64,000 nucleotides of DNA from an uncultured Verrucomicrobiota bacterium. GTDB lineage: Bacteria; Verrucomicrobiota; Verrucomicrobiia; Opitutales; Opitutaceae. The position numbers and the translations under genes were made by a program. The stretch covers positions 1 to 64,000 of the forward strand of contig CAIUGM010000027.1 of NCBI GenBank assembly GCA_903898675.1. Direction: 5' to 3'. Positions 24,675-38,430 of the stretch are shown one piece after another. The stretch's first letter is position 1, and each line of letters begins with the position of its first letter. A model generated the notes under the pieces. It was not told the DNA's origin. It did no database searches and saw nothing but the letters and a program-made list of their open reading frames with translations.

Positions 24675-24675
24675 T

Positions 24676-25335
24676 ATGAGCTCAACCGCCGCCCTCACCC
24701 GCTGGAACGCCGAACTGCGCGGGCAATCACCACTGGACATCGTCCGCTGGGCCGTCGCCCAGGCCGCCGGCCGCGCCGTCGTGTCGACCAACTTCCGGCC
24801 GTACGAGGCCGCGATCCTCCACCTCGCCGTCCAGGCACAGCCCGACATCCCGGTGCTCTGGGTGGACCACGGTTACAACCGGCCCGCGACCTACGTCCAC
24901 GCCGAGGCCCTGCGCACCCGGCTCGGGCTCAACCTCAAGCCGTACCTGCCGCGCCTCACGCCGGCGCACCGCGACGCCGTGTACGGCCCGATCCCGACCA
25001 CCGAGGACGAGGCCGGGCTCAAGAAATTCAGCGCCTTGATGAAACTGGAGCCTTTTCAGCGCGGCATGCGCGAGCTGGCGCCCACCGTCTGGATCACGGC
25101 GCTGCGCAAGGTGCAGAATCCCAACCGCGCCGGGCTCGACATTGTTTCCCTCGACGAGAATTTCGGCGCGCTGAAGGTCAGCCCGCTGTTTTATGCGAGC
25201 GACGCCGAGCTCGACGCCTACCTCGCGCAGCACCAGCTGCCCAACGAATGGGATTACTTCGATCCCGCCAAGGCGGATGAGAAGCGCGAGTGCGGCCTGC
25301 ACGCCGCGTGGGGCAAACAGGCGGTCAACGCCTGA
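24676..25335 (+). CDS. cysH: Phosphoadenylyl-sulfate reductase
   Basis: The product is 219 aa. It reduces PAPS (or APS) to sulfite using thioredoxin. Recognisable features are the adenylate-binding N-terminal region (VVSTNFRPYEAAILHLAV), the central WITALRKVQNPNRAG, and the C-terminal catalytic Cys206 in ECGLH. It has no other cysteine, so the paired CC/CxxC that holds the 4Fe-4S cluster in APS reductases is absent; by family knowledge this indicates the PAPS type. It starts one base after the cysI stop and overlaps cysD by one base, so the genes are translationally tied. Confidence 0.9.
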   Translation: MSSTAALTRWNAELRGQSPLDIVRWAVAQAAGRAVVSTNFRPYEAAILHLAVQAQPDIPVLWVDHGYNRPATYVHAEALRTRLGLNLKPYLPRLTPAHRDAVYGPIPTTEDEAGLKKFSALMKLEPFQRGMRELAPTVWITALRKVQNPNRAGLDIVSLDENFGALKVSPLFYASDAELDAYLAQHQLPNEWDYFDPAKADEKRECGLHAAWGKQAVNA

Positions 25336-26294
25336 TGTCCACCGCACCGTCCGGCTTGCGCGCCCCCCGGGGCGCCGTCATACCCTCGAACATGCACAGC
25401 TATCACCTCGACCACCTGCAGCACCTCGAGACCGAGGCCATCCATGTGATGCGCGAGGTCGCGGGCGAATTCGAGCGGCCGGCCCTGCTGTTCTCGGGCG
25501 GCAAGGACTCGATCTGCCTGCTGCGCCTGGCGGAAAAGGCCTTCCGACCCTCGGAGCTGCCGATGCCGCTGCTCAACGTCGACACGGGCCATCATTTTCC
25601 TGAGCTAAACGAGTTCCGCGACCGCCGCGCCAAGCAGCTCGGGGCCCGGCTCATCATCCGGACCGTCGAGGGGGCGATCGCCAAGGGCATCGCGCAGCCG
25701 GCCCCCGGCGAGATCAGCCGCAACCGCCTCCAGATCCCGACCCTGCTCGCCGCCATCGAGGAATTCCGCTTCGACTGCTGCATCGGCGGCGCCCGCCGCG
25801 ATGAGGAAAAGGCCCGCGCCAAGGAGCGTTTCTTCAGCTTCCGCGACAGCTTCGGCCAGTGGGACCCGAAAAACCAGCGGCCCGAGATCTGGAACCTCTA
25901 CAACGGCCGGCTGAATCCGGGCGAGAACATGCGCGTCTTCCCGCTCAGCAACTGGACGGAGTCGGACGTGTGGGAGTACATCCAGCGCGAGCAGCTGGAG
26001 GTGCCCAGCATCTATTTCAGCCACCGCCGCCGCTGCGTGCGCCGGGCGGGCCAGTGGCTGCCGGTGAACACCCTCGTGCCGCCGAAACCCACCGAGGAGG
26101 TCCGCGACCTGGTGGTCCGGGTCCGCACCATCGGCGACATCATCAGCACGGGCTGCGTCGAGTCCCCCGCCACGACGGTGGCGGACATCATCACCGAGAT
26201 CGCCGCGGCCCGCGTCACCGAGCGCGGCTCGCGCGCCGACGACAAATCGTCCGAGGCGGCGATGGAAGACCGCAAGAAAGCCGGGTACTTCTGA
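25335..26294 (+). CDS. cysD: Sulfate adenylyltransferase subunit 2
   Basis: The product is 319 aa. It is the PP-loop ATP pyrophosphatase that forms APS from ATP and sulfate together with CysN. Motifs: PALLFSGGKDSICLLRLAEKAF (SGGKDS loop), NVDTGHHFPELNEFRD, GGARRDEEKARAKERFFSFRD and VFPLSNWTESDVWEYI. The start at 25335 overlaps the cysH stop (TGATG). An ATG at 25392 (MHSYHLDHLQ) fits the usual CysD N-terminus better, so the first 19 residues may be an extension. Confidence 0.93.
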   Translation: MSTAPSGLRAPRGAVIPSNMHSYHLDHLQHLETEAIHVMREVAGEFERPALLFSGGKDSICLLRLAEKAFRPSELPMPLLNVDTGHHFPELNEFRDRRAKQLGARLIIRTVEGAIAKGIAQPAPGEISRNRLQIPTLLAAIEEFRFDCCIGGARRDEEKARAKERFFSFRDSFGQWDPKNQRPEIWNLYNGRLNPGENMRVFPLSNWTESDVWEYIQREQLEVPSIYFSHRRRCVRRAGQWLPVNTLVPPKPTEEVRDLVVRVRTIGDIISTGCVESPATTVADIITEIAAARVTERGSRADDKSSEAAMEDRKKAGYF

Positions 26295-26346
26295 GCGCAT
26301 TCCCCGCGAAAAACCGCCGTTCCTCGAAGCGCAAATCCTAACTTTC

Positions 26347-27711
26347 ATGTCCGTGGTCGCCTCCCCAACTTCTATCTCTCATCTGCCATCGGCGGCGGCG
26401 TCCGCCGCCCTGCCGGTCGACATCCTCCGCTTCAACACCTGCGGCAGTGTCGACGACGGCAAGTCCACCCTCATCGGCCGCCTCCTGTACGACTCGAAGT
26501 CGCTCATGGAGGACCAGCTTGAGGCACTCGAGCGTTCCGCGGACATCACCGGCGGCGGCCAGATCAACCTCGCCAACATCACCGACGGCCTGCGGGCCGA
26601 GCGCGAGCAGGGCATCACCATCGACGTGGCCTACCGGTACTTCGCCACGCCGCGCCGCAAGTTCATCATCGCGGACACCCCCGGCCATGTGCAGTACACG
26701 CGCAACATGGTGACCGGCGCCTCGTCGGCCAACCTCTCCATTGTCCTCGTCGACGCGCGCACCGGCGTCATCGAGCAAAGCCGCCGCCACACCGCCATCG
26801 CCTCGCTGCTGCGCATCCCGCACCTCGTCGTCGCGGTCAACAAGATGGACCTCGTCGGCTGGAGCGAGGCGCGCTTTCTCGAGATCCGCGCCCAGTTTGA
26901 GGAATTTCTTCCCCGCCTCGACATCAAGGACGTAAAGTTCATCCCGCTCAGCGCGCTCACCGGCGACAACGTTGTCGATGCGTCGCCGCACACGCCCTGG
27001 TACGTGGGCCCGACCTTGCTCGGCCACCTGGAGACGGTGCACATCGCGAGCGACTGGAACCTGACCGGTTTCCGCCTGCCCGTGCAGTGGGTCAACCGGC
27101 CGAACAATCCGACCGATCCCAAACTCCATGATTTCCGCGGCTTCAGCGGCCAGATCGCGGGCGGCATCGTGCGCACCGGCCAGAAGGTCACGGCCCTGCC
27201 GGCCGGACTCAGCACCACCGTGAAGGAAATCTGGACCTACGACGGCCCGGTCCAGGAGGCCTTCTGCCCGCAGTCCGTCACCCTGGTGCTGGAACACGAC
27301 ATCGACATCAGCCGCGGCAACATGCTCATCGGCGCCGACCACCTGCCCGGCGCCAGCAGCGACCTCATTGCGGATGTCTGCTGGATGCACCCGCGGCCGC
27401 TGCAGCGCGGCCGGAAATATTTCCTCAAGCACACCTCGCAGACCGTGCAGGTCGCGGTCACCGAGATCACGCACCGCCTCGAGATGGCGACGCTCGACCC
27501 GGAGTCCGAGCCGGCCGAGCTGGCGATGAACGATATCGGCCAGATCCGCCTGCGCGCGGCCCGGCCGCTGGTGTTCGACGGCTACGCCACCAACCGGCTC
27601 ACCGGCTCCTTCATCCTGATCGAGCAGGGCACGAACGCCACGGTGGCCGCGGGCATGCTCCAGCCGCCGCGCGAGATCGTCAAACCGGAGGGTGGCGACT
27701 ACGCCATCTGA
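26347..27711 (+). CDS. cysN: Sulfate adenylyltransferase subunit 1 (GTPase)
   Basis: The product is 454 aa. It is an EF-Tu-like GTPase that drives APS formation by CysD. G1 GSVDDGKST (33-41), switch region EREQGITIDVAYRYF, G3 DTPGH, G4 NKMDL and a SALTGDN G5-like motif are all present, followed by two beta-barrel domains. It ends at GGDYAI without the C-terminal APS kinase (CysC) domain found in fused NodQ/CysNC proteins, so PAPS synthesis needs a kinase encoded elsewhere. It follows cysD by 52 bp. Confidence 0.94.
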   Translation: MSVVASPTSISHLPSAAASAALPVDILRFNTCGSVDDGKSTLIGRLLYDSKSLMEDQLEALERSADITGGGQINLANITDGLRAEREQGITIDVAYRYFATPRRKFIIADTPGHVQYTRNMVTGASSANLSIVLVDARTGVIEQSRRHTAIASLLRIPHLVVAVNKMDLVGWSEARFLEIRAQFEEFLPRLDIKDVKFIPLSALTGDNVVDASPHTPWYVGPTLLGHLETVHIASDWNLTGFRLPVQWVNRPNNPTDPKLHDFRGFSGQIAGGIVRTGQKVTALPAGLSTTVKEIWTYDGPVQEAFCPQSVTLVLEHDIDISRGNMLIGADHLPGASSDLIADVCWMHPRPLQRGRKYFLKHTSQTVQVAVTEITHRLEMATLDPESEPAELAMNDIGQIRLRAARPLVFDGYATNRLTGSFILIEQGTNATVAAGMLQPPREIVKPEGGDYAI

Positions 27712-27718
27712 CCGCGCC

Positions 27719-28132
27719 GTGAAGATTTCCGTCAAAGTCGACTATGCCTGCCGCGTCATGGCGGAGCTGGCCCGCCTGCACGGCTCCGGCACGCTCGCGC
27801 AGATCGAGCACCTAGCCCAGACGGAGGCGGTACCCGCGAATTTCCTGGCCCAGATCCTCGGCAAGCTGCGCACCCACGGCCTGATCGTGAGCCGCCGCGG
27901 CAACCAGGGCGGCTACACCCTCGCCCGCGCACCCGAGGAAATCTCACTGCACGACATCCTGATGGCGGTCGAAGGCGGCTGCCTGCACCTGAGCGGAAAT
28001 TTTCAGGGCCGGTCGGGCCGGCGGCTGAAGCAGGTGTGGGACGAGATCGGCGCGGACCTCACCAAGCGCACCAAGAGCTACACGCTCGACCGGCTCTCGT
28101 CCAAGAATCCGACCGAGATGTATTATATCTAG
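27719..28132 (+). CDS. Rrf2-family transcriptional regulator
   Basis: The product is 137 aa. The N-terminal winged helix reads KISVKVDYACRVMAELARLHG, IEHLAQTEAVPANFLAQILGKLRTHGLIVSRRGNQGGYTLARAPEEISLHDI. It has only one cysteine (EGGCLHL) instead of the three that hold the Fe-S cluster in IscR/NsrR, so it resembles the cluster-free CymR subgroup known for cysteine metabolism. The GTG at 27719 gives the canonical start; a GTG at 27692 inside cysN is less likely. Its place at the end of the cys genes makes a sulfur regulator likely (inference). Its stop overlaps the convergent protease gene by 4 bp. Confidence 0.85.
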   Translation: MKISVKVDYACRVMAELARLHGSGTLAQIEHLAQTEAVPANFLAQILGKLRTHGLIVSRRGNQGGYTLARAPEEISLHDILMAVEGGCLHLSGNFQGRSGRRLKQVWDEIGADLTKRTKSYTLDRLSSKNPTEMYYI

Positions 28133-29334
28133 GCCGCCGGCGTCCCGCCGGCTTCCGCCTGGTGCAGGATAAGTTCGAGCGCCTCGAGGGCGAAGGGACT
28201 TTTGACCGGGCTGAGGCTCTTGTGCTCCAGGGCATGGAGACCCTCGCGGGCCTTTTCGGCCGCCGTATTTTTTTTGCCCTCAGCGAGCAGCACCGCCGCC
28301 TCGGCGCGCAGGCGGGTGGCGGGATCGAATTCCAGTTTTCCCGCTGACTCGAGCCAGGCACGGGCCGCGCCCACGTCGGCGGTCTGGCTGGCGAGCAACC
28401 AGGCGTACTCGCACCGGATCACGTCGCGGACGTAGGGGATGACCTTGTCCGAACCGGCCAGCACGTAGTCCAGATGCATCTGCGCCGCCGCCCACTCGGC
28501 CCGGTCCGCCGCATGGTAGTAAACCACGAGGTGGCCGTAGAGATCGAAGAGTGAACCGTCGCGGAGCGAGACCGCGCGTGCGATCATCGTCGGATCGTAG
28601 TCCGCCGGCCGGATGCCGGCCAGGCTCGCGGTGGTCAGCATCAGCATGGCGGCCTCCTGTTCCGAGCCGCGGCCGCCCCGCAAAAGCTCGAACACACGCT
28701 TGCCGTCCGACTTGAAGCCGCCGGCCGTGGCGGGAGCCGCCGTCACGAGAAAGATCAGCAGGGAAGTTCCCGCAGTGAAGAGCGCCACGTTTTGTGCCAG
28801 GGCGCGGGCAAGCGAAACCGGCGCGGCACCCGACCCCAGCCCGGCCGCCAGCCAGAGGGCGCCGATCGTGAGCAGCAGGCTCGCCACCGGGCCGCCAAGA
28901 ATCATGACGGCGACGCGCGGCGGCGTCATCAGGGCCGGCTCAAGCGGTAAACACGCCGCCATGCCGCCGGCGGTGTTCACATTCCGGTTCCAGCCCACCC
29001 GGATTCCCGCCGGGGTGCGCCGCACCATGCAGGGCCCGGCGACCCACAGCAGAAACCGGCCGCCCACCAACCAGCCGCCGACCACATGCCCGAGTTCGTG
29101 CCAGCCCACCACCACCAGCCAGACGAGGGGCAGCGATGCCAAGGGCAGCAACCGGAGTAACTTCGCGCCCGGCAACGGCAGCAGCAAATTCATGCCGTAA
29201 CGCGCAACCAGGTAACCCAGCAGTCCGCCGGCGGCCGCGCCGGCCAGCAATCCCGCGATCCGCCAGGCGGATTTTTTCGCCGTGGCCTGGGGCGGGGGCG
29301 GCTGACGGGAAATCACGGCGGGGAGTGCTTCCAT
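28129..29334 (-). CDS. M50-like (site-2 type) membrane metalloprotease
   Basis: The product is 401 aa. The zinc motif HELGH lies at 79-83 in a membrane segment (LVWLVVVGWHELGHVVGGWLVGG). A later TM stretch ends in PATAGGFKSDGKRVFELLRGG, fitting the second M50 motif with its Asp. There are about five hydrophobic segments in the first 215 residues, then a soluble alpha-helical tail of about 185 residues rich in Ala/Glu/Leu (AEWAAAQMHLDYVLAG; ARAWLESAGKLEFDPATRLRAEAAVLLAEG), which looks TPR-like. It is probably an intramembrane protease with a cytoplasmic or periplasmic helical domain; the substrate is unknown. Confidence 0.83.
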   Translation of the reverse strand: MEALPAVISRQPPPPQATAKKSAWRIAGLLAGAAAGGLLGYLVARYGMNLLLPLPGAKLLRLLPLASLPLVWLVVVGWHELGHVVGGWLVGGRFLLWVAGPCMVRRTPAGIRVGWNRNVNTAGGMAACLPLEPALMTPPRVAVMILGGPVASLLLTIGALWLAAGLGSGAAPVSLARALAQNVALFTAGTSLLIFLVTAAPATAGGFKSDGKRVFELLRGGRGSEQEAAMLMLTTASLAGIRPADYDPTMIARAVSLRDGSLFDLYGHLVVYYHAADRAEWAAAQMHLDYVLAGSDKVIPYVRDVIRCEYAWLLASQTADVGAARAWLESAGKLEFDPATRLRAEAAVLLAEGKKNTAAEKAREGLHALEHKSLSPVKSPFALEALELILHQAEAGGTPAA

Positions 29335-29418
29335 GCACGGGGTCTAAACCGGAATCACCCCGGGCTGACCAGCGGCACTGGATCAATGGTCGAACAACCG
29401 GATGACCGGCCGGCCACG

Positions 29419-30231
29419 TTACGAACGGCGGCGGCGCGGGCTTTCCCGCGGCAGCAGCCACCGGAGGACCTCGCCGATCCGGGCGCCCCAGGCTGCCTCG
29501 GTGTGCGCGGCGTCCGGCACTTCATGATAATGCAGGTCCCTGCCCGCTTTCCAACCGCGCGCGACCAGCGAATCCCGCAACTCCCGGATCACTTCCCAAC
29601 CGGGCTCCGCCGTGCCCATGTCGAGCCAGAGCCGTACCGCGGGTTTCCGGCGCAGCCGGGCGAAGGCCCGGATGACGGTCCGGTCGTCCCACCAGACCGA
29701 CGGCGACAGGGCGGCCACCTGGCCGAACACCTGCGGATACCACAGGGCAAAATACAGCGACACCAGCCCGCCCATCGACGAGCCGACCACGGAATTGTGC
29801 CGCGCGGCCGGCCGCGTCAGGTAATTCGCGTCGATGAAGGGCTTCACTTCGTTGACGAAAAACCGCGCGTAGCGGCGGGCGTCGCCCGTGCTTTGGCTGG
29901 CCTCCCCGTTCCAGCCGGCGAACGCCGCGGGGGTCGGCGCATATTCGTTCATCCGGTCGAAGCCGGTGTTGTAAACCCCGACCATGATCGCCGCCTCCAG
30001 CCGCCGGCGCCGGATGAGCTCCGCGGCGCGGTCACCCGCCTGCCAGGCCTGGCCCAGAAAGGCGGTGGCGGGGTCGAAAATATTCTGTCCGTCCTGAAAG
30101 TACACGACCGGGTAGCGCCGGCGGGTCCGGCCGTAACCCGGCGGCAGCCAGACCACCAGGTCGCGGTGGTTGCGCAACCCGCGCGAGTAAAAGCGGGCAT
30201 GCAGGCGGAGTTCGGCGGGCGGAGGTGGCAT
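29419..30231 (-). CDS. Esterase D-family alpha/beta hydrolase
   Basis: The product is 270 aa. It is a putative esterase (PF00756-like): RNHRDLVVWLPPGYG, YPVVYFQDGQNIFDP, nucleophile elbow VVGSSMGGLVSLYFAL with Ser152, LSPSVWWDD, and a late His in DAAHTEAAWGARI. It has no signal peptide. The C-terminus is basic (RRRRS). Related enzymes hydrolyse short acyl esters or siderophore and carbohydrate esters; the substrate is unknown. It is monocistronic beside a large palindrome. Confidence 0.83.
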   Translation of the reverse strand: MPPPPAELRLHARFYSRGLRNHRDLVVWLPPGYGRTRRRYPVVYFQDGQNIFDPATAFLGQAWQAGDRAAELIRRRRLEAAIMVGVYNTGFDRMNEYAPTPAAFAGWNGEASQSTGDARRYARFFVNEVKPFIDANYLTRPAARHNSVVGSSMGGLVSLYFALWYPQVFGQVAALSPSVWWDDRTVIRAFARLRRKPAVRLWLDMGTAEPGWEVIRELRDSLVARGWKAGRDLHYHEVPDAAHTEAAWGARIGEVLRWLLPRESPRRRRS

Positions 30232-30571
30232 CGGCGGGAGCGGCCGGTGCTACCGATGGGTCCAGGCGAAGCCAAGCGGTTTTTGAAAACCAGGGAGTGT
30301 CTTCAAACCTGTTTGTCATCCTGAGCATCGCGAAGGATCCGGTCGCGCACACGCGGCGCCGCTCTCGAAGCCGTCTGGATTCTTCGCTACGCTCAGCACC
30401 GAGCCGCAGGCGACATCAGACATGACAGAATAGGCCTGACTGGAGGTTTGAAAACACTCCCCAGTCCGACCAGGCGCCGGAAGCCCGTTTCGCCCGCAAT
30501 CATACCTTGACCCGGCATGACAATTGCACGACAGCGGAGCCGCGCCGGGCTCCCGGCGAGCCACCCTCCGC
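30232..30571. other. Spacer filled by a large nested palindrome
   Basis: The gap of about 340 bp between divergent esterase genes has no gene of its own. Most of it is the nested inverted repeat at 30293-30461. Promoters for both neighbours must lie at its edges; none is clear. Confidence 0.6.
30293..30461. repeat. Large nested palindrome with family C (gtcatcctgag) core
   Basis: The outer arms 30293-30310 (gggagtgtcttcaaacct) and 30444-30461 (aggtttgaaaacactccc) pair with one mismatch. Inside are opposing family C words, gtcatcctgagcatcgcgaag and its counterpart cttcgctacgctcagcac. This is the paired-REP layout. Confidence 0.8.
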
Positions 30572-31294
30572 ATGAACGAGCAACATGTCCGCTGGTATAC
30601 CCCGCACTTGAGCCGGGATTTTGAAATGCTGGTCTTCGGCCACGCCGGCTACCCGGTGATCCTTTTCCCGACCTCGCTCGGCCGCTACTACCAGAACAAG
30701 GACTTCGGGTTGATCGGCTCGGTGGCCCACCTGATCGACGCCGGGAAAATCAAGATCTACTGCCCCGACGGGATCGACGAGCAAAGCTGGTACAACAAGT
30801 CCATCTCGCCGGCCGACCGCGTCCGAACGCACATCGCCTACGAGAACGTGATCCTGCACGACCTCGCGCCGCGGGTGATGCATGAGACCGGCCGCTCCCG
30901 GATCTGCGTCGCCGGGGCCAGCTTCGGGGGCTACCACTCGGTGAACTTCGCGCTGCGCCACCCGGACCTCGTCGGCTACTGCATCAGCCTCAGCGGCTCG
31001 TTCGACATCCGGTCGTTCCTGGACGGCTACCGGGACGACCTGACCTACCTCAACAATCCCGTCGAGTACCTGCCCAACCTGGACGACCCGTGGTTCCTGG
31101 ACCGGATCCGCCAGATGGGGATCGTCCTCGGCACCGGCGACCGCGACGGCTGCCGGGACCGGAACCTCCAGCTTTCCCACCTGCTCAACACCAAGGGCAT
31201 CCCCCATTTCCTCGACGACCGGAAATGGTGCGGCCATGATTGGAACTACTGGCGCGACATGTTTCCGCTCTACCTTTCGCTCATCAAAGGTTAA
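30572..31294 (+). CDS. Esterase-like alpha/beta hydrolase, first gene of ligase cluster
   Basis: The product is 240 aa. It has the nucleophile elbow AGASFGGYHS (Ser117) and His222 in the C-terminal WCGHDWNYW, plus an acidic candidate in TGDRDGCRD. It opens NEQHVRWYTPHLSRDFEMLVFGHAGYPVILFPTSLGRYY. There is no signal peptide, so it is cytoplasmic. Such hydrolases are found next to ATP-grasp and YbdK-like ligases and could act as an acyltransferase or a trimming hydrolase on their product (inference). It is 9 bp upstream of the ATP-grasp gene. The ATG at 30572 is chosen; upstream codons belong to the spacer. Confidence 0.82.
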   Translation: MNEQHVRWYTPHLSRDFEMLVFGHAGYPVILFPTSLGRYYQNKDFGLIGSVAHLIDAGKIKIYCPDGIDEQSWYNKSISPADRVRTHIAYENVILHDLAPRVMHETGRSRICVAGASFGGYHSVNFALRHPDLVGYCISLSGSFDIRSFLDGYRDDLTYLNNPVEYLPNLDDPWFLDRIRQMGIVLGTGDRDGCRDRNLQLSHLLNTKGIPHFLDDRKWCGHDWNYWRDMFPLYLSLIKG

Positions 31295-31303
31295 CCTACT
31301 CCC

Positions 31304-32266
31304 ATGAAAAAGATCGGCATTCTCCACGGCAAGGAACGCACCTTCCCCGCCGCGCTCATCGAGCGCATCAACGCGCTGAACGAACCCGGCGTCTCCGCCG
31401 AGGAGGTCGTCATCAACCAGGTCACCCAGGGCGAACCCACGGCGTACGCGGTCGTGCTCGACCGCATCTCGCAGGACGTCCCGTTCTACCGCGCCTGGCT
31501 CAAGAACGCGGCGCTCAACGGCACCGCCGTCATCAACAACCCGTTCTGGTGGTCGGCCGACGAGAAGTTCTTCAACAACTGCCTCGCGACCAAGCTGGGC
31601 GTCGCCGTGCCGAAGACCGTCATTTTGCCTTCGAAGGACCTCCCCACGGACTGCAGCCCCGAGTCGTTCTCGAACCTGGCCTACCCGCTCGATTGGGACG
31701 GCATCTTCAATTACATCGGCTGGCCCGCCTACTTCAAACCGCACGCGGGCGGCGGCTGGAAGAGCGTCTACAAGGTCCGCAACCCGGATGAATTCTTCAA
31801 GGCCTACGCCGAGACCGCCCAGCTCGTCATGCTGCTGCAGTCCGAGGTGCACTTCGACGACTACTACCGCTGCTACTGCATCGGCGGCACCGACGTCCGC
31901 ATCATGCCCTACGAGCCGCGCAACGCGCCGCACCTGCGCTACGTGGTCGACCGCCCGCCCGGCTCGCCGGAGCTGCTGGCGCGGATCGAAAAGGACGTGC
32001 TCACGCTCAACGCGGCGCTGGGCTACGATTTCAACACCGTCGAGTTCGGCGTGAGCGGCGGCGTGCCCTACGCGATCGACTTCTGCAACCCGGCCCCGGA
32101 CGCCGACCGCAACTCCGTTGGCGAGGAAAACTTCCAGTGGGTCGTCGAAGCCGCCGCGAAGATGCTCGTCAAGAAGGCCAAGGCCCAGGTCCCGCACCAG
32201 AACAACACCACCTGGGGCACCTACGTGAAGGGCGCGGTGGGCCTCCCGCCGGCCAAGAAGAAGTAA
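31304..32266 (+). CDS. RimK-like ATP-grasp ligase
   Basis: The 320-aa product begins KKIGILHGKERTFPAALIERIN. ATP-grasp marks: ADEKFFNNCLATKLGVAVPKTVILPS, WPAYFKPHAGGGWKSVYKVRN (Lys in strand plus Gly loop), LLQSEVHFDDYYRCYCIGGTDVRIMPYEP, and the Mg2+-binding end FNTVEFGVSGGVPYAIDFCNPAPDAD with Glu and Asp/Asn in the usual places. It probably activates a carboxylate as acyl-phosphate and joins it to an amine. The C-terminus is Lys-rich. The partner genes suggest it works in series with the YbdK-like ligase. Confidence 0.85.
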   Translation: MKKIGILHGKERTFPAALIERINALNEPGVSAEEVVINQVTQGEPTAYAVVLDRISQDVPFYRAWLKNAALNGTAVINNPFWWSADEKFFNNCLATKLGVAVPKTVILPSKDLPTDCSPESFSNLAYPLDWDGIFNYIGWPAYFKPHAGGGWKSVYKVRNPDEFFKAYAETAQLVMLLQSEVHFDDYYRCYCIGGTDVRIMPYEPRNAPHLRYVVDRPPGSPELLARIEKDVLTLNAALGYDFNTVEFGVSGGVPYAIDFCNPAPDADRNSVGEENFQWVVEAAAKMLVKKAKAQVPHQNNTTWGTYVKGAVGLPPAKKK

Positions 32267-32321
32267 CCCCACAAACTCTCCGCCCTTTCGCCGTTTCGTC
32301 CTTCCGCGATTTCCTCCCCCC

Positions 32322-33443
32322 ATGTGCGCCTCCCGGAAAAAACCCAAGTTCACCCTCGGCATTGAGGAGGAGTTCCAGATCGTCGACCCCGTCACCCGCG
32401 AGCTGAAGTCGCACATCGAGGAGATCCTCGAGGCCGGCAAGATGGTGCTGAAGGAGAACGTGAAGCCGGAGCTGCACCAGTCGGTCGTCGAGGTCGGCAC
32501 CGACATCTGCGAAAATGTCGCGGACGCACGCCGGTCCGTGACCGCCCTGCGCACCGACCTGGCGAAGCTGGCCCGCAACGCCGGCCTCCGCATCGCCGCC
32601 GCCGGCACCCACCCGTTCTCGCACTGGATCGACCAGAAGATTTCCAAGGGCGAACGCTACCAGGGCGTGATCAACGACCTCCAGCAGGTCGCCCGCGCCA
32701 ACCTCATCTTCGGGCTCCACGTGCACGTCGGCATGCCGGACCGCGAGACCGCGATCCAGCTGATGAACACCGCGCGCTACTTCCTGCCGCACATCTTCGC
32801 GCTCTCCACGAACTCGCCGTTCTGGGTCGGCCGCGACACCGGCTTCAAGAGCTACCGCCTGCAGGTCTTCCAGCGCTTCCCGCGCACCGGCATCCCCGAC
32901 GCGTTCGACTCCATCGGCGAGCACGACGAGTACGTCAACCTGCTCATCAAAACCGGCTGCATCGACAACGCCAAAAAGATCTGGTGGGACATCCGCCTCC
33001 ATCCGCTCTTCCACACGCTGGAGTTCCGCGTCTGCGACATCCCGATGCGCGTCGACGAGACGATCTGCCTCGCCGCAATCATGCAGGCGGTCATCGCCAA
33101 GCTCTACAAACTCTACCGGCAGAACATGAGTTTCCGCATCTACCGCAGCCGGCTGCTCAACGAGAACCGCTGGCGCGCCTCGCGCTACGGCATCGGGGGG
33201 AAGATGATCGACTTCGGCAAGCAGGAGGAGGTCGAGACCCGGGCGCTGATCGGCGAGCTGCTTGAATTCGTTGATGATGTGGTGGATGAACTCGGCAGCC
33301 GCGTGGAGCTGAACTACGTCAACGAGATCCTGACCCGCGGCACCGGGGCCGACCGGCAGGTTGAGGTTTACAACCGCACTAAGGATCTGAAATCCGTAGT
33401 CGATTACATCATCACCGAAACCCACCACGGACTTGATCTCTGA
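32322..33443 (+). CDS. YbdK-type carboxylate-amine ligase (GCS2 family)
   Basis: The 373-aa product contains the family hallmark FTLGIEEEFQIVDPVTREL near the N-terminus (metal/ATP Glu cluster), VVEVGTDICENVADARR, NLIFGLHVHVGMPDRETAIQLMNTARYFLPHI, LSTNSPFWVGRDTGFKSYR, and HTLEFRVCDIPMRVDETICLAAIMQA. E. coli YbdK has weak gamma-glutamyl-cysteine ligase activity; for most members the true acid and amine are unknown. It lies 55 bp after the ATP-grasp gene and 52 bp before the aminopeptidase gene, all in one direction. Confidence 0.9.
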   Translation: MCASRKKPKFTLGIEEEFQIVDPVTRELKSHIEEILEAGKMVLKENVKPELHQSVVEVGTDICENVADARRSVTALRTDLAKLARNAGLRIAAAGTHPFSHWIDQKISKGERYQGVINDLQQVARANLIFGLHVHVGMPDRETAIQLMNTARYFLPHIFALSTNSPFWVGRDTGFKSYRLQVFQRFPRTGIPDAFDSIGEHDEYVNLLIKTGCIDNAKKIWWDIRLHPLFHTLEFRVCDIPMRVDETICLAAIMQAVIAKLYKLYRQNMSFRIYRSRLLNENRWRASRYGIGGKMIDFGKQEEVETRALIGELLEFVDDVVDELGSRVELNYVNEILTRGTGADRQVEVYNRTKDLKSVVDYIITETHHGLDL

Positions 33444-33495
33444 CGCCTCCTCTCCCTCCACCCAACGCCCTGCCCCGGCCCCCCGCTCCCCCCTC

Positions 33496-34518
33496 ATGCC
33501 TCACGCCGCCTCGTTGCCCACCAGCTTCGACCCCGCCTTGTCGCAGGGAGCGGCCAACGCGATCCACGTCTGCCTCAAGCTGCAGTCGAACGAACGCATG
33601 ACGCTCATCACCGACCACGCGTGCGCCGAGATCGCCGCCGCCCTCGTGTATGAGATCGAGAAGACCGGCGCGCCGTATAACGTTTTCGTCCTCGAGGAAT
33701 ACGGCCCGCGCCCGCACCGCGACATGCCCGCGGCCGTACTCGCGGATCTCGCGCAAGCCCAGGTCAGCATCTACGCCTGCATCACCCAGACCGGCGAGCT
33801 GCGCACGCGGATGCAGATGATGGACGTCATCAACCCGCGCCACATCCGCCACGGGCACATGGTGAACATCAACAAGCAGATCATGCTCGAGGGCATGTGC
33901 GCCGACTTCACGGAGGTGGACCGTCTCTCGCAGAAGCTGATCGAGAAGTGCCGCCGCACGAAGCGCGTCACCTGCCAGACGGCCGCCGGCACCGACTACG
34001 TCGCCGAGCTCTCGCCGAACCTGAAGTGGGTCAAGACCTCCGGCCTGATCGTCCCGGAAAAATGGGGCAACCTGCCCGGTGGCGAGATCTTCACGTCACC
34101 CTTCAACTCGAACGGCCGGTTCGTCGTGGACGGCGTCGTCGGCGACTACCTCTGCCAGAAATACGGCGACATCGGGGCCACGCCGCTGACGATCGAGATC
34201 AAGGACAACCGCATCGCCAGCCTGGCCTGTGCCAACCAGGAACTGCTCAAGGAGTTCGACGCCTACTGCCACACCGACGAGAACTCCAACCGCGTCGGCG
34301 AGTTCGCCATCGGCACCAACCTCGCCTGCACGCGCATCATCGGCCACATTTTGCAGGACGAAAAACTTCCCGGCATCCACATCGCCTTCGGCCACCCGTA
34401 CTCCGAGCACACGGGCCAGCCCTGGAAGAGCACGACCCACATCGACTGCGTCGGCCGCTTCTTCGACATCTGGCTCGACGACGAGCAGGTCATGGCGAAG
34501 GGGAAGTTCCTGATTTAG
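33496..34518 (+). CDS. M29-like aminopeptidase
   Basis: The product is 340 aa and resembles the thermophilic metalloaminopeptidase family M29: NAIHVCLKLQSNERMTLITDHACAEIAAAL at the N-terminus, YVAELSPNLKWVKTSGLI, GNLPGGEIFTSPFNSNGRFVVDG, NRVGEFAIGTN, GIHIAFGHPYSEHTGQPWKSTTHIDCVGRFFD. The Glu, His and HxD residues expected to hold two metal ions can be seen in the last two stretches. There is no signal peptide. In this cluster it may process the ligated product or free its amino end (inference). Confidence 0.87.
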   Translation: MPHAASLPTSFDPALSQGAANAIHVCLKLQSNERMTLITDHACAEIAAALVYEIEKTGAPYNVFVLEEYGPRPHRDMPAAVLADLAQAQVSIYACITQTGELRTRMQMMDVINPRHIRHGHMVNINKQIMLEGMCADFTEVDRLSQKLIEKCRRTKRVTCQTAAGTDYVAELSPNLKWVKTSGLIVPEKWGNLPGGEIFTSPFNSNGRFVVDGVVGDYLCQKYGDIGATPLTIEIKDNRIASLACANQELLKEFDAYCHTDENSNRVGEFAIGTNLACTRIIGHILQDEKLPGIHIAFGHPYSEHTGQPWKSTTHIDCVGRFFDIWLDDEQVMAKGKFLI

Positions 34519-34521
34519 GCA

Positions 34522-34634
34522 ATCGCGGAAACACGAAAGGACGGAAGCGCGAAAATCAAAACCGCATGCTTGCCCTCCCTGCATCCTTTTCTTTCTCCGG
34601 ATTCCGCCTCTCCGCTCTTCCGCGTTTCCGCGAT
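34522..34634. repeat. Imperfect palindrome in the aminopeptidase/ATP-grasp spacer
   Basis: The arms 34522-34541 (atcgcggaaacacgaaagga) and 34615-34634 (ctcttccgcgtttccgcgat) are near-perfect inverted copies that close the spacer into one long hairpin. A one-sided version of the same words is found before the YbdK-like gene (32283-32320). Confidence 0.7.
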
Positions 34635-34642
34635 CTCCGCCC

Positions 34643-35833
34643 ATGATCCCCATCCTCCGCCAGCGCTACAACGCCGCGTTCACCGAGCAAACCTATGCGG
34701 CGTTCCTCGCGGAGCTGAACACGGCGGTTTACTGGCCGGCGGATTTCCGCGTCGCCGAGTCCCCGTTGTTTCTCGACGAGCCCACCACCCGCGCACTGGT
34801 TCGCGCCGCGGACGATATCCTGGGCCAGCTCGGCACCCCGGAATTCCGGCGGCAGGCGGCCAATGCGATCCCGGCCGGACTCACGGTTCCGGCCGAAACC
34901 CCCTTCCCGCACTTTCTCGCCGTGGACTTTGCCCTGTGCCACGACGCCGGCGGCCAGGTGCTGCCGCAGCTGATCGAGCTGCAGGGTTTTCCCACCGTCG
35001 CCTGCTGGCAGGCGCTGCTGGCGCGCACCTACCAGAAACATTTCCCCGCGATCCCGCCCGATTTCACCCCTTACTTCGATGGACTGGACGAAGCGGGTTA
35101 TCTCGCTGCCTTCCGCCACGCCATTTTGGGTGACTGCCTGGCCGAGAATGTCGTGCTCCTGGAGATCGAACCCGACCAGCAGAAGACCCGCATCGATTTC
35201 GCCTGCACCCATGCGTTTCTCGGCATCAAGCCGCTGTGCGTCACCAAGGTCATCAAACACGGCCGGCAGCTGTTTTATCACTCCGGTGGCCGGGAGGTCC
35301 CGATCCACCGGATCTTCAACCGCGTCATCTTCGACGAACTGTTGCGGAAGAAACCGCCGATGAAATTCAGCTTCTTCGACGACCTCGAGGTGCAGTGGGC
35401 CGGACACCCCAACTGGTATTTCCGCATCAGCAAACACACCCTGCCTTTCCTGCGGAGCCCGTACGCCCCACCCTGCCATTTTGTCAGCGAGCTGAAGTCC
35501 ATGCCCGGCGATCTGGAAAACTACGTCTGCAAGCCGCTTTACTCGTTTGCCGGGCTCGGGGTGGACATCACCCCCACCGGGGAGAAGATCGCCGCCATCC
35601 CGAATCCGTCCGAGTGGCTGCTCCAGCGCAAGGTCACCTACGCCCCGATCATGGAGACCCCTGACGGCCCGGCCAAGGCCGAGGTCCGGCTGATCTTCGC
35701 CGGCGACGGCACCGGCCTGCCCCGGCTCGTCAACCAGCTGGTCCGCCTCACCAAGGGGGCGATGCACGGCGTGGATTTCAACAAAGGCCGGACGTGGGTC
35801 GGGGCGAGCGCGGGATTTCACGCGAAATTATAG
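34643..35833 (+). CDS. Probable ATP-grasp-like ligase, unknown family
   Basis: The product is 396 aa. The last third carries ATP-grasp-like signs: LENYVCKPLYSFAGLGVDITPTGE (Lys plus Gly-rich loop), EWLLQRKVTYAPIM and AEVRLIFAGDG, with NQLVRLTKGAMHGVDFN at the end. The first half (FPHFLAVDFALCHDAGGQVLPQLIELQGFPTVACWQALLARTYQKHF) resembles acid- or peptide-binding halves of ATP-grasp enzymes whose core is rearranged. I do not recognise a named family, so ATP-grasp is inferred from motifs. It is the last gene of the five-gene set; the Rho-independent terminator at 36015 lies about 180 bp downstream. Confidence 0.65.
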   Translation: MIPILRQRYNAAFTEQTYAAFLAELNTAVYWPADFRVAESPLFLDEPTTRALVRAADDILGQLGTPEFRRQAANAIPAGLTVPAETPFPHFLAVDFALCHDAGGQVLPQLIELQGFPTVACWQALLARTYQKHFPAIPPDFTPYFDGLDEAGYLAAFRHAILGDCLAENVVLLEIEPDQQKTRIDFACTHAFLGIKPLCVTKVIKHGRQLFYHSGGREVPIHRIFNRVIFDELLRKKPPMKFSFFDDLEVQWAGHPNWYFRISKHTLPFLRSPYAPPCHFVSELKSMPGDLENYVCKPLYSFAGLGVDITPTGEKIAAIPNPSEWLLQRKVTYAPIMETPDGPAKAEVRLIFAGDGTGLPRLVNQLVRLTKGAMHGVDFNKGRTWVGASAGFHAKL

Positions 35834-35877
35834 GGCGGACTCTCCCCACGTTCAGCCAGCCACATGCAGGAGTCCTG

Positions 35878-35987
35878 TAGGGGCGCAGACTTGCTGCGCC
35901 CTGCTTGCGCGGCATCCCGTTCGAGGGCGCAGCCCCTCGACAAGCTCTGGGCCCTGAGCCTGTCGAACGGGCAAGACTGCGCCCCTA
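35878..35987. repeat. Family B intergenic palindrome
   Basis: It opens taggggcgcagacttgctgc and closes gcaagactgcgcccctac, its inverted copy. The middle holds a nested REP word (gagcctgtcgaacggg with its partner cccgttcgagg), the same word as at about 312. Confidence 0.8.
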
Positions 35988-36014
35988 CGCTCACGGCCGC
36001 ACCCATAAAATTAA

Positions 36015-36053
36015 GAGCCGCGGCACACCCCTGCGCCGCGGCTCATTTTTTTC
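36015..36053 (+). terminator. Rho-independent terminator after ligase cluster
   Basis: The perfect 10-bp stem gagccgcggc/gccgcggctc (36015-36044) has loop acacccctgc and is followed by a run of seven T. It fits termination of the 30572-35833 genes. The loop sequence recurs in the hairpins at 36140 and 37015. Confidence 0.85.
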
Positions 36054-36139
36054 TAGCGAGCTGATGCTAAGACCCAGCTGGGAATCATGACGACCGGCAC
36101 ATGGCGCGGTTACATGGGTTTTATCAGCCGGAAGGCGGA

Positions 36140-36169
36140 GGGCCGCGACACACCCCTGCGTCGCGGCCC
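36140..36169 (-). terminator. Hairpin after the small barrel gene
   Basis: The perfect stem gggccgcgac/gtcgcggccc has loop acacccctgc, 28 bp past the stop of the minus-strand barrel gene. There is no U-tract, so termination is only possible. Confidence 0.55.
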
Positions 36170-36196
36170 AGGCCCACCTTCAGCTGACGCTGAAAA

Positions 36197-36844
36197 TCAG
36201 AACCGGGCGTTGAACCCGATTTTATAGCTCATGTTCTGCGCATCATCGCGGGTGATCGCACTGCTGAGCGCCCACTGCCTCGTCAGCCAGTAGTTCGCCT
36301 TCACGCCGTAGGTCGCCGTGTTCTTGTCGGCGAAGCCGTTGGTGCGCTCATAGCGGACGAAGGGCGTCAGGGTCAGGGCGTTCGTCACCTGGAACTCCAC
36401 GCCGGCGCCGCCGATCAGCGCGAGGGAATCGTCCTTCGCCCCGGCGTACTTGTTGCGGTCATAGCCCAGACCCGCCTCAAGGTAGGGCTTGCCCCAGGAA
36501 TACGACGGGCTGAAGGCCCGCAGCACGGCGTCGAGGTTCTGCGCGTAGCCGCGGTCGCCCGCGAGGAGCCCGTCCTGCGTCCGGTCGTAATTAAACACCG
36601 CGTCGAAGCCGGCGCTCAGCGGCTGGTTGTACTCGAAGCTGTAGCGGTCGGCACTGACGGGCGAGGTCCCGAGATGCACGTAGCTGTAGGATAGCCCCGC
36701 GTAAGTCTGGCCGAGCAGGCCGTTGTCGGTGGCCACCGTCGCGGGTGGCGCCGCGGTGGTGGTGTCCGCGCGCGCGGCGGCCGTGAGACCCAGTGAGGTC
36801 ACCCCGGCGAGAACAAGGAATTTAAGAATGATTTTTTGTTTCAT
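36197..36844 (-). CDS. Small outer-membrane beta-barrel protein (paralogue 1)
   Basis: The product is 215 aa. The signal peptide MKQKIILKFLVLAGVTSLGLTAAARA is followed by strands typical of an 8-10-stranded barrel: LLGQTYAGLSYSYVHLG, YSFEYNQPLSAGFDAVFNYDRTQDG, KPYLEAGLGYDRN, ALIGGAGVEFQVTNALTLTPFVRYE, TYGVKANYWLTRQWALSSAITRDD, ending YKIGFNARF with the C-terminal Phe recognised by BamA. It is clearly paralogous to the next gene upstream on the same strand (same LLGQTYAGLSYSY and YGVKANYW blocks). The function is unknown. Confidence 0.82.
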   Translation of the reverse strand: MKQKIILKFLVLAGVTSLGLTAAARADTTTAAPPATVATDNGLLGQTYAGLSYSYVHLGTSPVSADRYSFEYNQPLSAGFDAVFNYDRTQDGLLAGDRGYAQNLDAVLRAFSPSYSWGKPYLEAGLGYDRNKYAGAKDDSLALIGGAGVEFQVTNALTLTPFVRYERTNGFADKNTATYGVKANYWLTRQWALSSAITRDDAQNMSYKIGFNARF

Positions 36845-37072
36845 GGTTTTACTTTTTAGCGGTGTTCCCCGGCAGGACGCCGTGGGGACAATTGCTCAAA
36901 CACGCGATCACCGGTGAAGTTCCGCCCGGAAAAATCATCGCGCGGAAAATTTTCTCCCGCGGAACCCGCCGAAAATCTTCCTGTCGCCCGCCGGTTTTTC
37001 CCGCAAAAAAAGCAGGGCCGCGACGCACCCCTGCGTCGCGGCCCGCTGCACACACTCCGCCTGTGGCGGAAA
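36845..37072. other. Spacer between barrel paralogues
   Basis: It contains the terminator of paralogue 2 (37005-37044) and the promoter area of paralogue 1. An A/T- and G/C-block rich stretch (gcgcggaaaattttctcccgcgg, about 36940-36962) forms a short palindrome that could be regulatory. No gene is seen. Confidence 0.5.
37005..37044 (-). terminator. Rho-independent terminator of barrel paralogue 2
   Basis: The perfect stem gggccgcgac/gtcgcggccc (37015-37044) has loop gcacccctgc. Read on the minus strand it leads into a U-run from the seven A at 37005-37011. It is the third member of the hairpin family with the cacccctgc loop. Confidence 0.85.
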
Positions 37073-37702
37073 TCAGAAGCGGAAATTTGTCCCGACCAGG
37101 TAGCGCATGGCCTGGTGGTTGTCGCGGTCGAGGCCCGCCGTCAGCGCCCACTGGCTGTCGACCCAGTAATTGGCCTTCACGCCATAATTCCAGACGTCGC
37201 GCTGCGCGAGGTCGGGCGTGCCCTGGTACTTGACGAAGGGCGTGAGCGTGAACGCCGGCGCGAGCTGGAATTCCGTGCCGACGGCGATCTCCCACAGCAC
37301 GGAATTGTCCTTCCCGCCGCCGCCGCGCTCCCACGTGTAGCCGGCGCCGGCCTCGACGTAGGGCTTGCCCCAGGTGTAAGCGGAGCTGAACGCCCGCAGC
37401 GCGCCCGCCACGGCCTGTTGCTTGACGGCCCCGGTCTGCATGAAGTCATAGGACAGCACGCCATCCAGGCCGGCGTTGAGCGGCTGGTTGTAGTCGAAGC
37501 GGTAGTCGTCCGTATGGTCCGGCGAATGATTGAGATCGAGGTAGCTGTAGGACAGCCCCGCGTAAGTCTGGCCGAGCAGGCCCATCGTGCCCGACGGGGG
37601 CACGGAGGCGGACGACATGGCGTCGGCCGCCCGCGCGGCGCCGGCCAGGCTGAAGGCGGCGACCGCGAGCAGGAAAGATTTAATGAGCAGGTTCTGTTTC
37701 AT
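37073..37702 (-). CDS. Small outer-membrane beta-barrel protein (paralogue 2)
   Basis: The product is 209 aa. The signal peptide is MKQNLLIKSFLLAVAAFSLAGAARAAD. Barrel strands match paralogue 1 block by block (LLGQTYAGLSYSYLDLNHS; RFDYNQPLNAGLDGVLSYDFMQTG; KPYVEAGAGYTWERG; FQLAPAFTLTPFVKYQ; YGVKANYWVDSQWALTAGLDRDN), and it ends in LVGTNFRF. The ATG at 37702 is set by the signal peptide; the longer frame to 37840 covers GC-rich palindromes. The tandem copies probably arose by duplication. Confidence 0.82.
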   Translation of the reverse strand: MKQNLLIKSFLLAVAAFSLAGAARAADAMSSASVPPSGTMGLLGQTYAGLSYSYLDLNHSPDHTDDYRFDYNQPLNAGLDGVLSYDFMQTGAVKQQAVAGALRAFSSAYTWGKPYVEAGAGYTWERGGGGKDNSVLWEIAVGTEFQLAPAFTLTPFVKYQGTPDLAQRDVWNYGVKANYWVDSQWALTAGLDRDNHQAMRYLVGTNFRF

Positions 37703-37754
37703 GGTGGTGTGGTGGTTGGTCCGGCTGGGCCAGGTCAGTCCCGGGCCGGTCCTG

Positions 37755-37825
37755 TTCAGAACCCGGGGCGGGCCCCGGGGTTCCCTGGCGGAAAAACTCC
37801 CGGAAATATGCGGGCTTTCCCGGGA
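37755..37825. repeat. GC-rich palindromes upstream of barrel paralogue 2
   Basis: Two short perfect palindromes lie here: cccggggc-gg-gccccggg (about 37763-37780) and ttcccggg-aa-cccgggaa (about 37817-37834). They sit between divergent genes (barrel and peroxiredoxin) and could be operators or structured leader RNA. Confidence 0.5.
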
Positions 37826-37905
37826 ACCCGGGAAAATCACCGCTGTCGGGCGGCCCGCCGGGCCCCACTTGCCAATCGGCGGTCCCTGACTAGCCTGCGG
37901 GTGCC

Positions 37906-38430
37906 ATGAAATTATCCCGCCTCTTCCTCCTCCTTGCCACCATGTCCCTCTTCGCCCAAGCCCACGCCGATCCCCTCAAGGTGGGTGATCCCGCCCCCGC
38001 TGTCACCGCCACGACCGAAGCCGGCGTGAAACTCGCCTTCGCCGACGTCTACAAACAGCAGCCTTACACGCTCGTTTATTTTTATCCGAAGGCCGACACC
38101 CCCGGTTGCACGAAGCAGGGTTGCTCGCTGCGCGACGGCTACGAGGCACTCACCAAAAAGGGCGTGGCCGTCATCGGCGTCAGCCACGACGACGTCGCGG
38201 CGCAAAAGGCCTTCAAGGACAAATACCACCTGCCTTTCACCCTCATCGCCGACATGGACAGCGCGGTGATCAACGCCTTCGGCGTGCCGGCCGCGATGCC
38301 GCTGACGAGCATGGCCCACCGCTCCGCCTACCTGATCAAGGACGGCAAGATCATCTACGCCGACTACAAGGGCACGACGGAGAAGCAGGCCGAGATGATT
38401 CTCGCCGAGCTCGCCAAGCCCGGCGCCTGA
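37906..38430 (+). CDS. Exported Bcp-type peroxiredoxin
   Basis: The product is 174 aa. It has a signal peptide, MKLSRLFLLLATMSLFAQAHAD, then a PrxQ/BCP fold: LKVGDPAPAVTATTEAG, LVYFYPKADTPGCTKQGCSLRD with Cys68 (peroxidatic) and Cys73 (resolving, five residues on as in PrxQ/Bcp), VIGVSHDDVAAQKAFKDKYHLPFTLIAD, and a late RSAYLIKDGKIIYADYKG. It should reduce peroxides in the periplasm, which is less usual than the cytoplasmic Bcp. It ends at its own terminator. Confidence 0.92.
   Translation: MKLSRLFLLLATMSLFAQAHADPLKVGDPAPAVTATTEAGVKLAFADVYKQQPYTLVYFYPKADTPGCTKQGCSLRDGYEALTKKGVAVIGVSHDDVAAQKAFKDKYHLPFTLIADMDSAVINAFGVPAAMPLTSMAHRSAYLIKDGKIIYADYKGTTEKQAEMILAELAKPGA

Follow-up and report, generated by a model that had tools for sequence, protein, structure and literature searches.

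The genes described here lie in a 64,000-nt stretch of Opitutaceae DNA, termed the window, and positions are given in the coordinates of this whole stretch. They comprise a set of ligase and hydrolase genes at 30572-35833 and a divergent esterase gene, estB (Table 1). A previous sequence-only reading had described five co-directional genes with gaps of 9-124 bp, and this was borne out by the open reading frames, the successive spacings between the five plus-strand genes being 9, 55, 52 and 124 bp. The est gene starts with an ATG at 30572, and the M29 gene likely starts with the ATG at 33496, its stop codon ending at 34518. The content proposed at that time, two or three ligases, a peptidase and a hydrolase, was also correct, with three ligases. 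Overall, that reading was supported in part: the ligases, the gene order and the fold of the last protein stood, while the view of the last protein as unrecognisable, the number of genes and the standing of the M29 peptidase had to be corrected.

Table 1. Genes and features of the ligase/hydrolase set, in window coordinates
Feature	Position	Strand	Basis
estB, divergent PF00756 esterase	29419..30231	-	PF00756 119.5 bits
est, PF00756 esterase-like alpha/beta hydrolase	30572..31294	+	PF00756 45.8 bits; cut-off 22
RimK-like ATP-grasp amide ligase	31304..32266	+	Predicted structure vs RimK, LysX/ArgX
GCS2 / YbdK-type carboxylate-amine ligase (PRK13515)	32322..33443	+	NCBIfam 549.5 bits; cut-off 371
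Divergent M29 metallopeptidase (hydrolase slot)	33496..34518	+	Pfam M29 53.3 bits; cut-off 27
396-aa YgiC / glutathionylspermidine-synthetase-type ATP-grasp ligase	34643..35833	+	Fold of predicted model
Strong hairpin, possible two-way terminator	36015..36044	.	Terminator scan and letters read

Of the five plus-strand genes, est, the GCS2 ligase and the M29 gene obtained family names above cut-off in Pfam and NCBIfam; the RimK-like and 396-aa proteins did not. None of the six proteins (estB included) matched PADLOC models of anti-phage defence at E <= 0.001, and a defence role was rejected on this result. No sigma-70-like sites were given by the scan of the plus strand at 28000-38000. The single strong terminator previously placed at 36015 was recovered as a hairpin about 180 bp beyond the last stop codon of the cluster; however, the terminator scan scored it on the minus strand alone, as belonging to the reverse-oriented gene at 36197-36844 that it faces. 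On the plus strand, an A and seven T come after the hairpin (36045-36052), and it may therefore serve both directions.

The RimK-like protein fell below every Pfam and NCBIfam cut-off, the best NCBIfam match being TIGR00768 with 18 bits against 143.4. Its predicted structure (predicted local distance difference test (pLDDT) 91.5, predicted template modelling score (pTM) 0.88) aligned to RimK (5zct) with Z 22.3 over 264 residues at a root-mean-square deviation of 2.9, and to LysX/ArgX with Z 21.5. D-Ala-D-Ala ligases were near behind, at Z about 20. Lys145, Glu247, Asp259 and Asn262 were kept in at least 90% of 27 aligned rows. By this model, the protein has a RimK-type ATP-grasp fold. In one relative (L095:9001-10416), the RimK-like ligase is 472 aa in total and carries a long Lys/Ala/Pro-rich, histone-H1-like C-terminal tail; a role of the lysine-rich tail as a tag was rejected, as the tail is variable and missing in many relatives. 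The GCS2 ligase was the sole GCS2 match of its own genome (221.9 bits; cut-off 21), and GCS2 was present in 11 of 11 genomes with the cluster compared with 2 of 17 genomes of the same family without it.

The 396-aa protein had been said to match no recognisable family. This stood insofar as it gave no match in Pfam or NCBIfam at E <= 1. Pfam GSP_synth likewise matched neither this protein at E <= 1 nor any other in its genome, and among three relatives scanned the best score was 15.1 bits (cut-off 29.3). The fold, however, is recognisable. The model, built from 11 sequences (pLDDT 74.5, pTM 0.77), retrieved with Foldseek 3n6x, a putative glutathionylspermidine (Gsp) synthase (E 1.2e-13), human glutathione synthetase (2.1e-12) and YgiC (6.3e-11). 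With VIA-align, the best matches were YgiC (Z 22.2 over 336 residues) and Gsp synthetase/amidase (21.8), followed by trypanothione synthetase (20.0), Cp1B (20.0) and human glutathione synthetase (19.7); the score then dropped to 9.0 for 3k1t, a putative gamma-glutamylcysteine synthetase, and to 6.5 or less for ordinary ATP-grasp enzymes. By prediction, then, the protein adopts over its whole length an ATP-grasp fold like that of YgiC, Gsp synthetase and the eukaryotic type of glutathione synthetase, and the ATP-grasp assignment made from the sequence held up in the model.

In a short hhalign stretch (probability 9.5), Lys264 and Lys297 of the 396-aa protein lay opposite Lys267 and Lys302 of YgiC, both of which are also present in E. 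coli Gsp synthetase. Asp95 and Glu112-x-Gln114 were invariant in 31 rows of the family, with their placement against YgiC made by eye only. In PMC12568646, YgiC and YjfC are termed peptidylpolyamine synthetases and Cp1B is demonstrated to form amides as an ATP-grasp enzyme. At L171:4637-7237, a sodium:solute symporter and a member of the 396-aa ligase family are fused in one open frame of 867 aa, and in one further genome the symporter gene is adjacent to the ligase gene, unfused.

Within the window's phylum, the 396-aa protein was found in 11 of 288 genomes, its own included. The RimK-like protein was matched in 13 of the 288 at E 0.001, the two beyond the cluster-bearing 11 being weak. For the M29 protein, 115 of the 288 gave a match at this threshold, and a close copy occurred solely in the cluster genomes, where E was below 1e-150 (best value elsewhere 5e-23), so that the identical 11 genomes hold all three. 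The set is missing from one genome of the window's own genus (G274). The expectation that gene order would be kept in relatives was confirmed: RimK-like, GCS2, M29 and 396-aa genes followed one another in this order in all 10 other cluster genomes, with est in front in eight, and gene order is retained well outside the genus. The spacings in three loci (L059, L063 and L065) allow unrelated genes between cluster members. Genes resembling L,D-transpeptidases and kinases (L059), and MATE transporters, flavin adenine dinucleotide (FAD)-dependent oxidases and methyltransferases (L063, L065 and L076), all named from their translations, were rejected as core members since they were not recurrent among the loci read.

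Beyond the phylum, a profile scan of genome contigs with the RimK-like alignment gave at least 586 relatives. The best 80, mostly from Bacteroidota with some from Opitutia and Ignavibacteriota, were combined with 10 loci of the phylum into a set of 90, in which at least L057 and L072 come from the same genome. The RimK-like gene is present in all 90 by construction; the other counts are lower bounds, as some contigs end inside the cluster. GCS2 was found in 86 loci, estB in 70, the 396-aa gene in 40, est in 31, a class-I glutamine amidotransferase gene in 21 and M29 in 18. Sixteen genomes, picked mostly for having no 396-aa gene near the RimK-like gene, were searched whole, and all 16 carried the 396-aa gene, even away from the RimK-like gene.

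A second sample comprised 198 genomes from the phylum to which G288, the genome of locus L139, belongs. At E 0.001, the 396-aa, RimK-like and amidotransferase proteins were matched in 61, 74 and 51 genomes, and after weak rows were dropped (1, 2 and 1, respectively) in 60, 72 and 50. The 396-aa and RimK-like proteins occurred together in 58 genomes and singly in 2 and 14, with neither in 124 (p 7e-34). The corresponding figures were 49, 1 and 23, and 125 for amidotransferase and RimK-like, and 39, 11 and 21, and 127 for amidotransferase and 396-aa. In a search of plasmids, no RimK-like protein was matched at E 0.001 and no 396-aa protein at E 0.01.

Both PF00756 esterases retain conserved catalytic-type positions: Ser117, Asp192 and His222 of est in at least 95% of 30 sequences, and Ser152 and His243 of estB in at least 95% of 68. 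In 31 of the 90 loci est precedes the RimK-like gene, and in 21 of those 31 the distance is within 150 bp. On its own, est has relatives in 19 plasmid records, and in two of the three annotated contexts it adjoins a different ATP-grasp gene. In 70 of the 90 loci estB flanks the cluster in divergent orientation; it therefore belongs to the system as a sixth gene, so that the five-gene extent first assigned to it was too narrow.

The slot directly before the 396-aa ligase is usually occupied by an amide hydrolase, for which three unrelated kinds were found: M29, class-I glutamine amidotransferase and Amidohydro_3. The M29 peptidase, a member of the set in the window, is one of these three enzymes found in this position. 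Among the 40 loci of the 90-locus set with a 396-aa gene, 21 had the amidotransferase, 17 had M29, two (both Ignavibacteriota) had neither and none had both. In the M29 protein, Glu197, Glu269, His295, Tyr302, His315 and Asp317, which we take to be active-site and metal-ligand residues, were invariant in 19 of 19 sequences. Its aligned part resembles AmpS (E 0.0024). A dioxygenase of the NicX kind was rejected, as both peptidase glutamates are present and the aligned dioxygenase lacks them.

Where Bacteroidota loci have the 396-aa gene close to GCS2, the amidotransferase gene mostly separates the two. It matched PF00117 in all three proteins scanned, and Cys108, His211 and Glu213 were invariant in 16 sequences; no solved structure was matched by the amidotransferase alignment at E <= 0.001. 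The gap to the ligase gene had a median of 5 bp, and in 9 of 21 cases the genes touch or overlap. The same arrangement was seen beside the 396-aa gene in 11 of 16 loci fetched from the whole-genome searches. In nine further loci, an Amidohydro_3-like gene lies directly before the ligase; the query, and with it the Pfam match, came from one of the nine, to which the remaining loci show 43-47% similarity. A gene of the aromatic amino acid lyase family (PF00221, scanned in L185) was present at L185:7650-9182 and in six similar loci around the RimK-like gene, from a genome group in which the 396-aa gene mostly has an Amidohydro_3-like neighbour. Removal of four duplicates from 79 ligase sequences left 75 for a tree (quick method, several long branches), and this tree requires at least two changes among the three hydrolase types. 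The three kinds of hydrolase in one slot fit a ligase/amidase pair like that of glutathionylspermidine synthetase/amidase.

Further out, the frequent flanking families in a 91-locus comparison were an outer-membrane receptor-like family (25 loci), an extracytoplasmic function (ECF)-type sigma factor (18), riboflavin synthesis (16), two families with no Pfam match (13 and 12) and an alpha/beta hydrolase (6). The annotation of neighbours covered these frequent families. The receptor-like, ECF sigma factor and riboflavin families were rejected as core members and regarded as lineage-specific neighbours, since most loci, and the window too, lack them. The frequent flanking families scanned do not point to a product.

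In the window itself, assimilatory sulfate-reduction genes and an Rrf2 regulator lie just upstream of the cluster (22956-28132), encoding a sulfite reductase, two PAPS (3'-phosphoadenosine-5'-phosphosulfate)-reductase-family proteins read as CysH and CysD, and a CysN-like GTPase. Such sulfate-assimilation genes were found near the cluster in the window, in L057/L072 and in L064, and, being confined to these among 157 loci, they were rejected as part of the system. On the other side, 36197-36844 and 37073-37840 encode adjacent minus-strand proteins of similar sequence that resemble outer-membrane beta-barrels, the first of which has no Pfam match. Each of the two genes is followed by a GC-rich hairpin (36015-36044 and 37015-37044), and the two hairpins are alike.

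Based on the enzyme classes, the predicted folds, the conserved catalytic residues, the conserved linkage and the different hydrolases in the same slot, we consider it probable, if by a modest measure, that the cluster encodes the synthesis of a single small compound, peptide-like or an amide, by three ATP-dependent ligations, and its reopening by a partner amidase. A small peptide or amide compound had been the original proposal and remains the best reading. The order of steps, and the opposition of ligase and hydrolase, are inferred. The GCS2 ligase would form a first gamma-glutamyl-type or other carboxylate-amine bond, and the RimK-like ligase would attach another amino acid. The YgiC/GspS-type 396-aa ligase may then close the free carboxylate through an amide bond with an amine or amino acid. 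The neighbouring hydrolase, M29 here and an amidotransferase or Amidohydro_3 enzyme elsewhere, would cut the same or a neighbouring amide bond, so that the last ligase and the hydrolase would form and break amide linkages as a pair, as in glutathionylspermidine synthetase/amidase. An acyl derivative of the compound could be the substrate of both PF00756 esterases.

Several observations weigh against such a pathway. The sequence-level link of the 396-aa protein to YgiC is weak (E 0.016; hhalign probability 9.5), and the relationship depends on a predicted fold of moderate confidence. Spermidine as the acceptor found no support in the window organism: nspC, the spermidine route covered, was above cut-off in none of 22 genomes (11 with the cluster); nine weak matches below cut-off were probably related decarboxylases. 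Thirteen of the 75 ligase rows had no recognised hydrolase adjoining, some of them having just 1.5 kb of flank, and there were few independent swaps because hydrolase type tracks the ligase phylogeny. The Fisher tests of co-occurrence ignore shared ancestry. In the 198-genome sample, 11 of the 50 amidotransferase genomes lacked the 396-aa gene, and five of these were fetched (L172, L173, L177, L215 and L216), of which the last three were read for gene content. L177 and L215 carry a variant cluster (L177:4659-9031 and L215:5722-9915) of RimK-like, circularly permuted ATP-grasp (PF14403 in L177), amidotransferase and another PF00756 esterase gene, with no GCS2 or 396-aa gene nearby. The amidotransferase is therefore not tied to the 396-aa ligase alone. 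L216 has est, RimK-like and amidotransferase genes plus an esterase of the L177/L215 kind. The gene set is accordingly modular, with the RimK-like gene as its anchor.

A more specific form of the proposed pathway is put forward tentatively: the product may be a cellular compound not recognised before, occurring across Bacteroidota, Ignavibacteriota and part of the Opitutia. It could be a gamma-glutamyl peptide that is capped reversibly through an amide and plays a cofactor-like role. In this version, unrelated enzymes would have taken the place of the opposing amidase at least twice, with the ligases retained.

A glutathione-like thiol keeps a place among the candidates because the 396-aa protein has the fold of eukaryotic glutathione synthetase. 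In such a route, which we regard as unlikely, glutathione-type chemistry would be performed by unrelated enzymes: GCS2 would yield gamma-glutamylcysteine, the 396-aa protein would take the part of a eukaryotic-type glutathione synthetase, with the thiol and its thioesters degraded or processed by the hydrolases and esterases. The sequence-only reading had argued that the logic was not that of glutathione alone; consistent with this, the GshB family PF02955 had no matches in the window's genome (E. coli control positive), but the fold shared with the human enzyme (Z 19.7) tells the other way, and the missing GshB also counts in favour of the thiol route by unrelated enzymes. The sole GCS2 match of the genome sits in the cluster, and estB matched S-formylglutathione hydrolase weakly in NCBIfam (E 5.3e-5; 22.9 bits against a cut-off of 281.7). 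Among the 157 loci, cysD or cysN with Rrf2 lay near the cluster in three genomes, all of the window's genus, and peroxiredoxin in 10 loci (nine genomes), every one from an Opitutia relative of the window; outside these relatives, however, the search gave no sulfur gene or peroxiredoxin close to the cluster. YgiC and Gsp synthetase also match the model somewhat better (Z 22.2 and 21.8), and the RimK-like ligase, the best conserved gene in the phylum, plays no part in glutathione synthesis.

The same enzymes could serve a catabolic route. After import, an amine, amide or ester would be tagged through ligation, as in the gamma-glutamyl route of PuuA/PuuD, then processed, and finally set free by the amidase and esterases. 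The symporter fused to the 396-aa ligase in one genome and adjacent in another, the Amidohydro_3-like enzymes and two esterases accompanying the ligases, and the outer-membrane receptor-like family near the cluster in 25 of 91 loci would all suit uptake and breakdown. Yet the symporter was the nearest recognised neighbour in just 2 of 79 ligase loci, and the other frequent neighbour families scanned, within the annotation noted above, include no obvious catabolic enzyme, so that this route too appears rather unlikely.

A protein- or peptide-modifying system, in which the RimK-like and YgiC-like ligases extend a protein terminus or ribosomal peptide and the hydrolase removes residues, is improbable: it would accord with the RimK fold, with the description of YgiC/YjfC as peptide ligases in PMC12568646 and with the lysine-rich tails on some RimK-like proteins, but these tails are not general and no widely conserved small frame was found, the largest family of 20-110 aa outside the core occurring in 11 of 90 loci, with the four members inspected on the minus strand, apparently opposite other genes. 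A ribosomally synthesized and post-translationally modified peptide, or graspetide, appears unlikely on the same absence of a widely conserved precursor frame in the 90 loci, from which very short or divergent precursors could escape.

If the proposed amide pathway is correct, the cluster may mark a metabolite absent from current maps, and the three unrelated hydrolases provide a handle on the ligase chemistry because all must share a substrate type. The 396-aa family is in any case a widespread ATP-grasp family unnamed by Pfam and NCBIfam, with a strong match in 60 of 198 genomes of one phylum-wide sample. Relatives occur in named strains whose records carry no metagenome-assembly mark (Arcicella rosea, Cryomorpha ignava, Sediminibacterium ginsengisoli and Flavihumibacter petaseus), which makes gene removal combined with metabolomics feasible. 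No description of the cluster was recognised in the literature covered, from which subscription papers were mostly absent; the 2009 amidoligase survey may list the neighbourhood.

Among known systems, the amidoligase neighbourhoods of Iyer et al. 2009, which reportedly join ATP-grasp and other amide ligases with peptidases, appear to be of the same genre. With the RimK, LysX and ArgX ligases, the RimK-like protein shares the fold and the four residues Lys145, Glu247, Asp259 and Asn262, whereas its identity to them is about 16% and it lies far under the TIGR00768 cut-off. Class-I amidotransferases such as gamma-glutamyl peptidase and PuuD are comparable to the Bacteroidota replacement gene, which has the Cys-His-Glu residues and PF00117; the window has no such gene. 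E. coli YgiC/YjfC and Gsp synthetase/amidase have the same full-length fold as the model of the 396-aa protein, which differs from this group in its 10-13% identity, in giving no Pfam GSP_synth match and, as judged by eye, in missing the Arg of the YgiC Arg-x-Asp motif. Gsp synthetase/amidase likewise pairs a ligase with an amidase, whereas in the cluster the amidase is a separate and unrelated enzyme.

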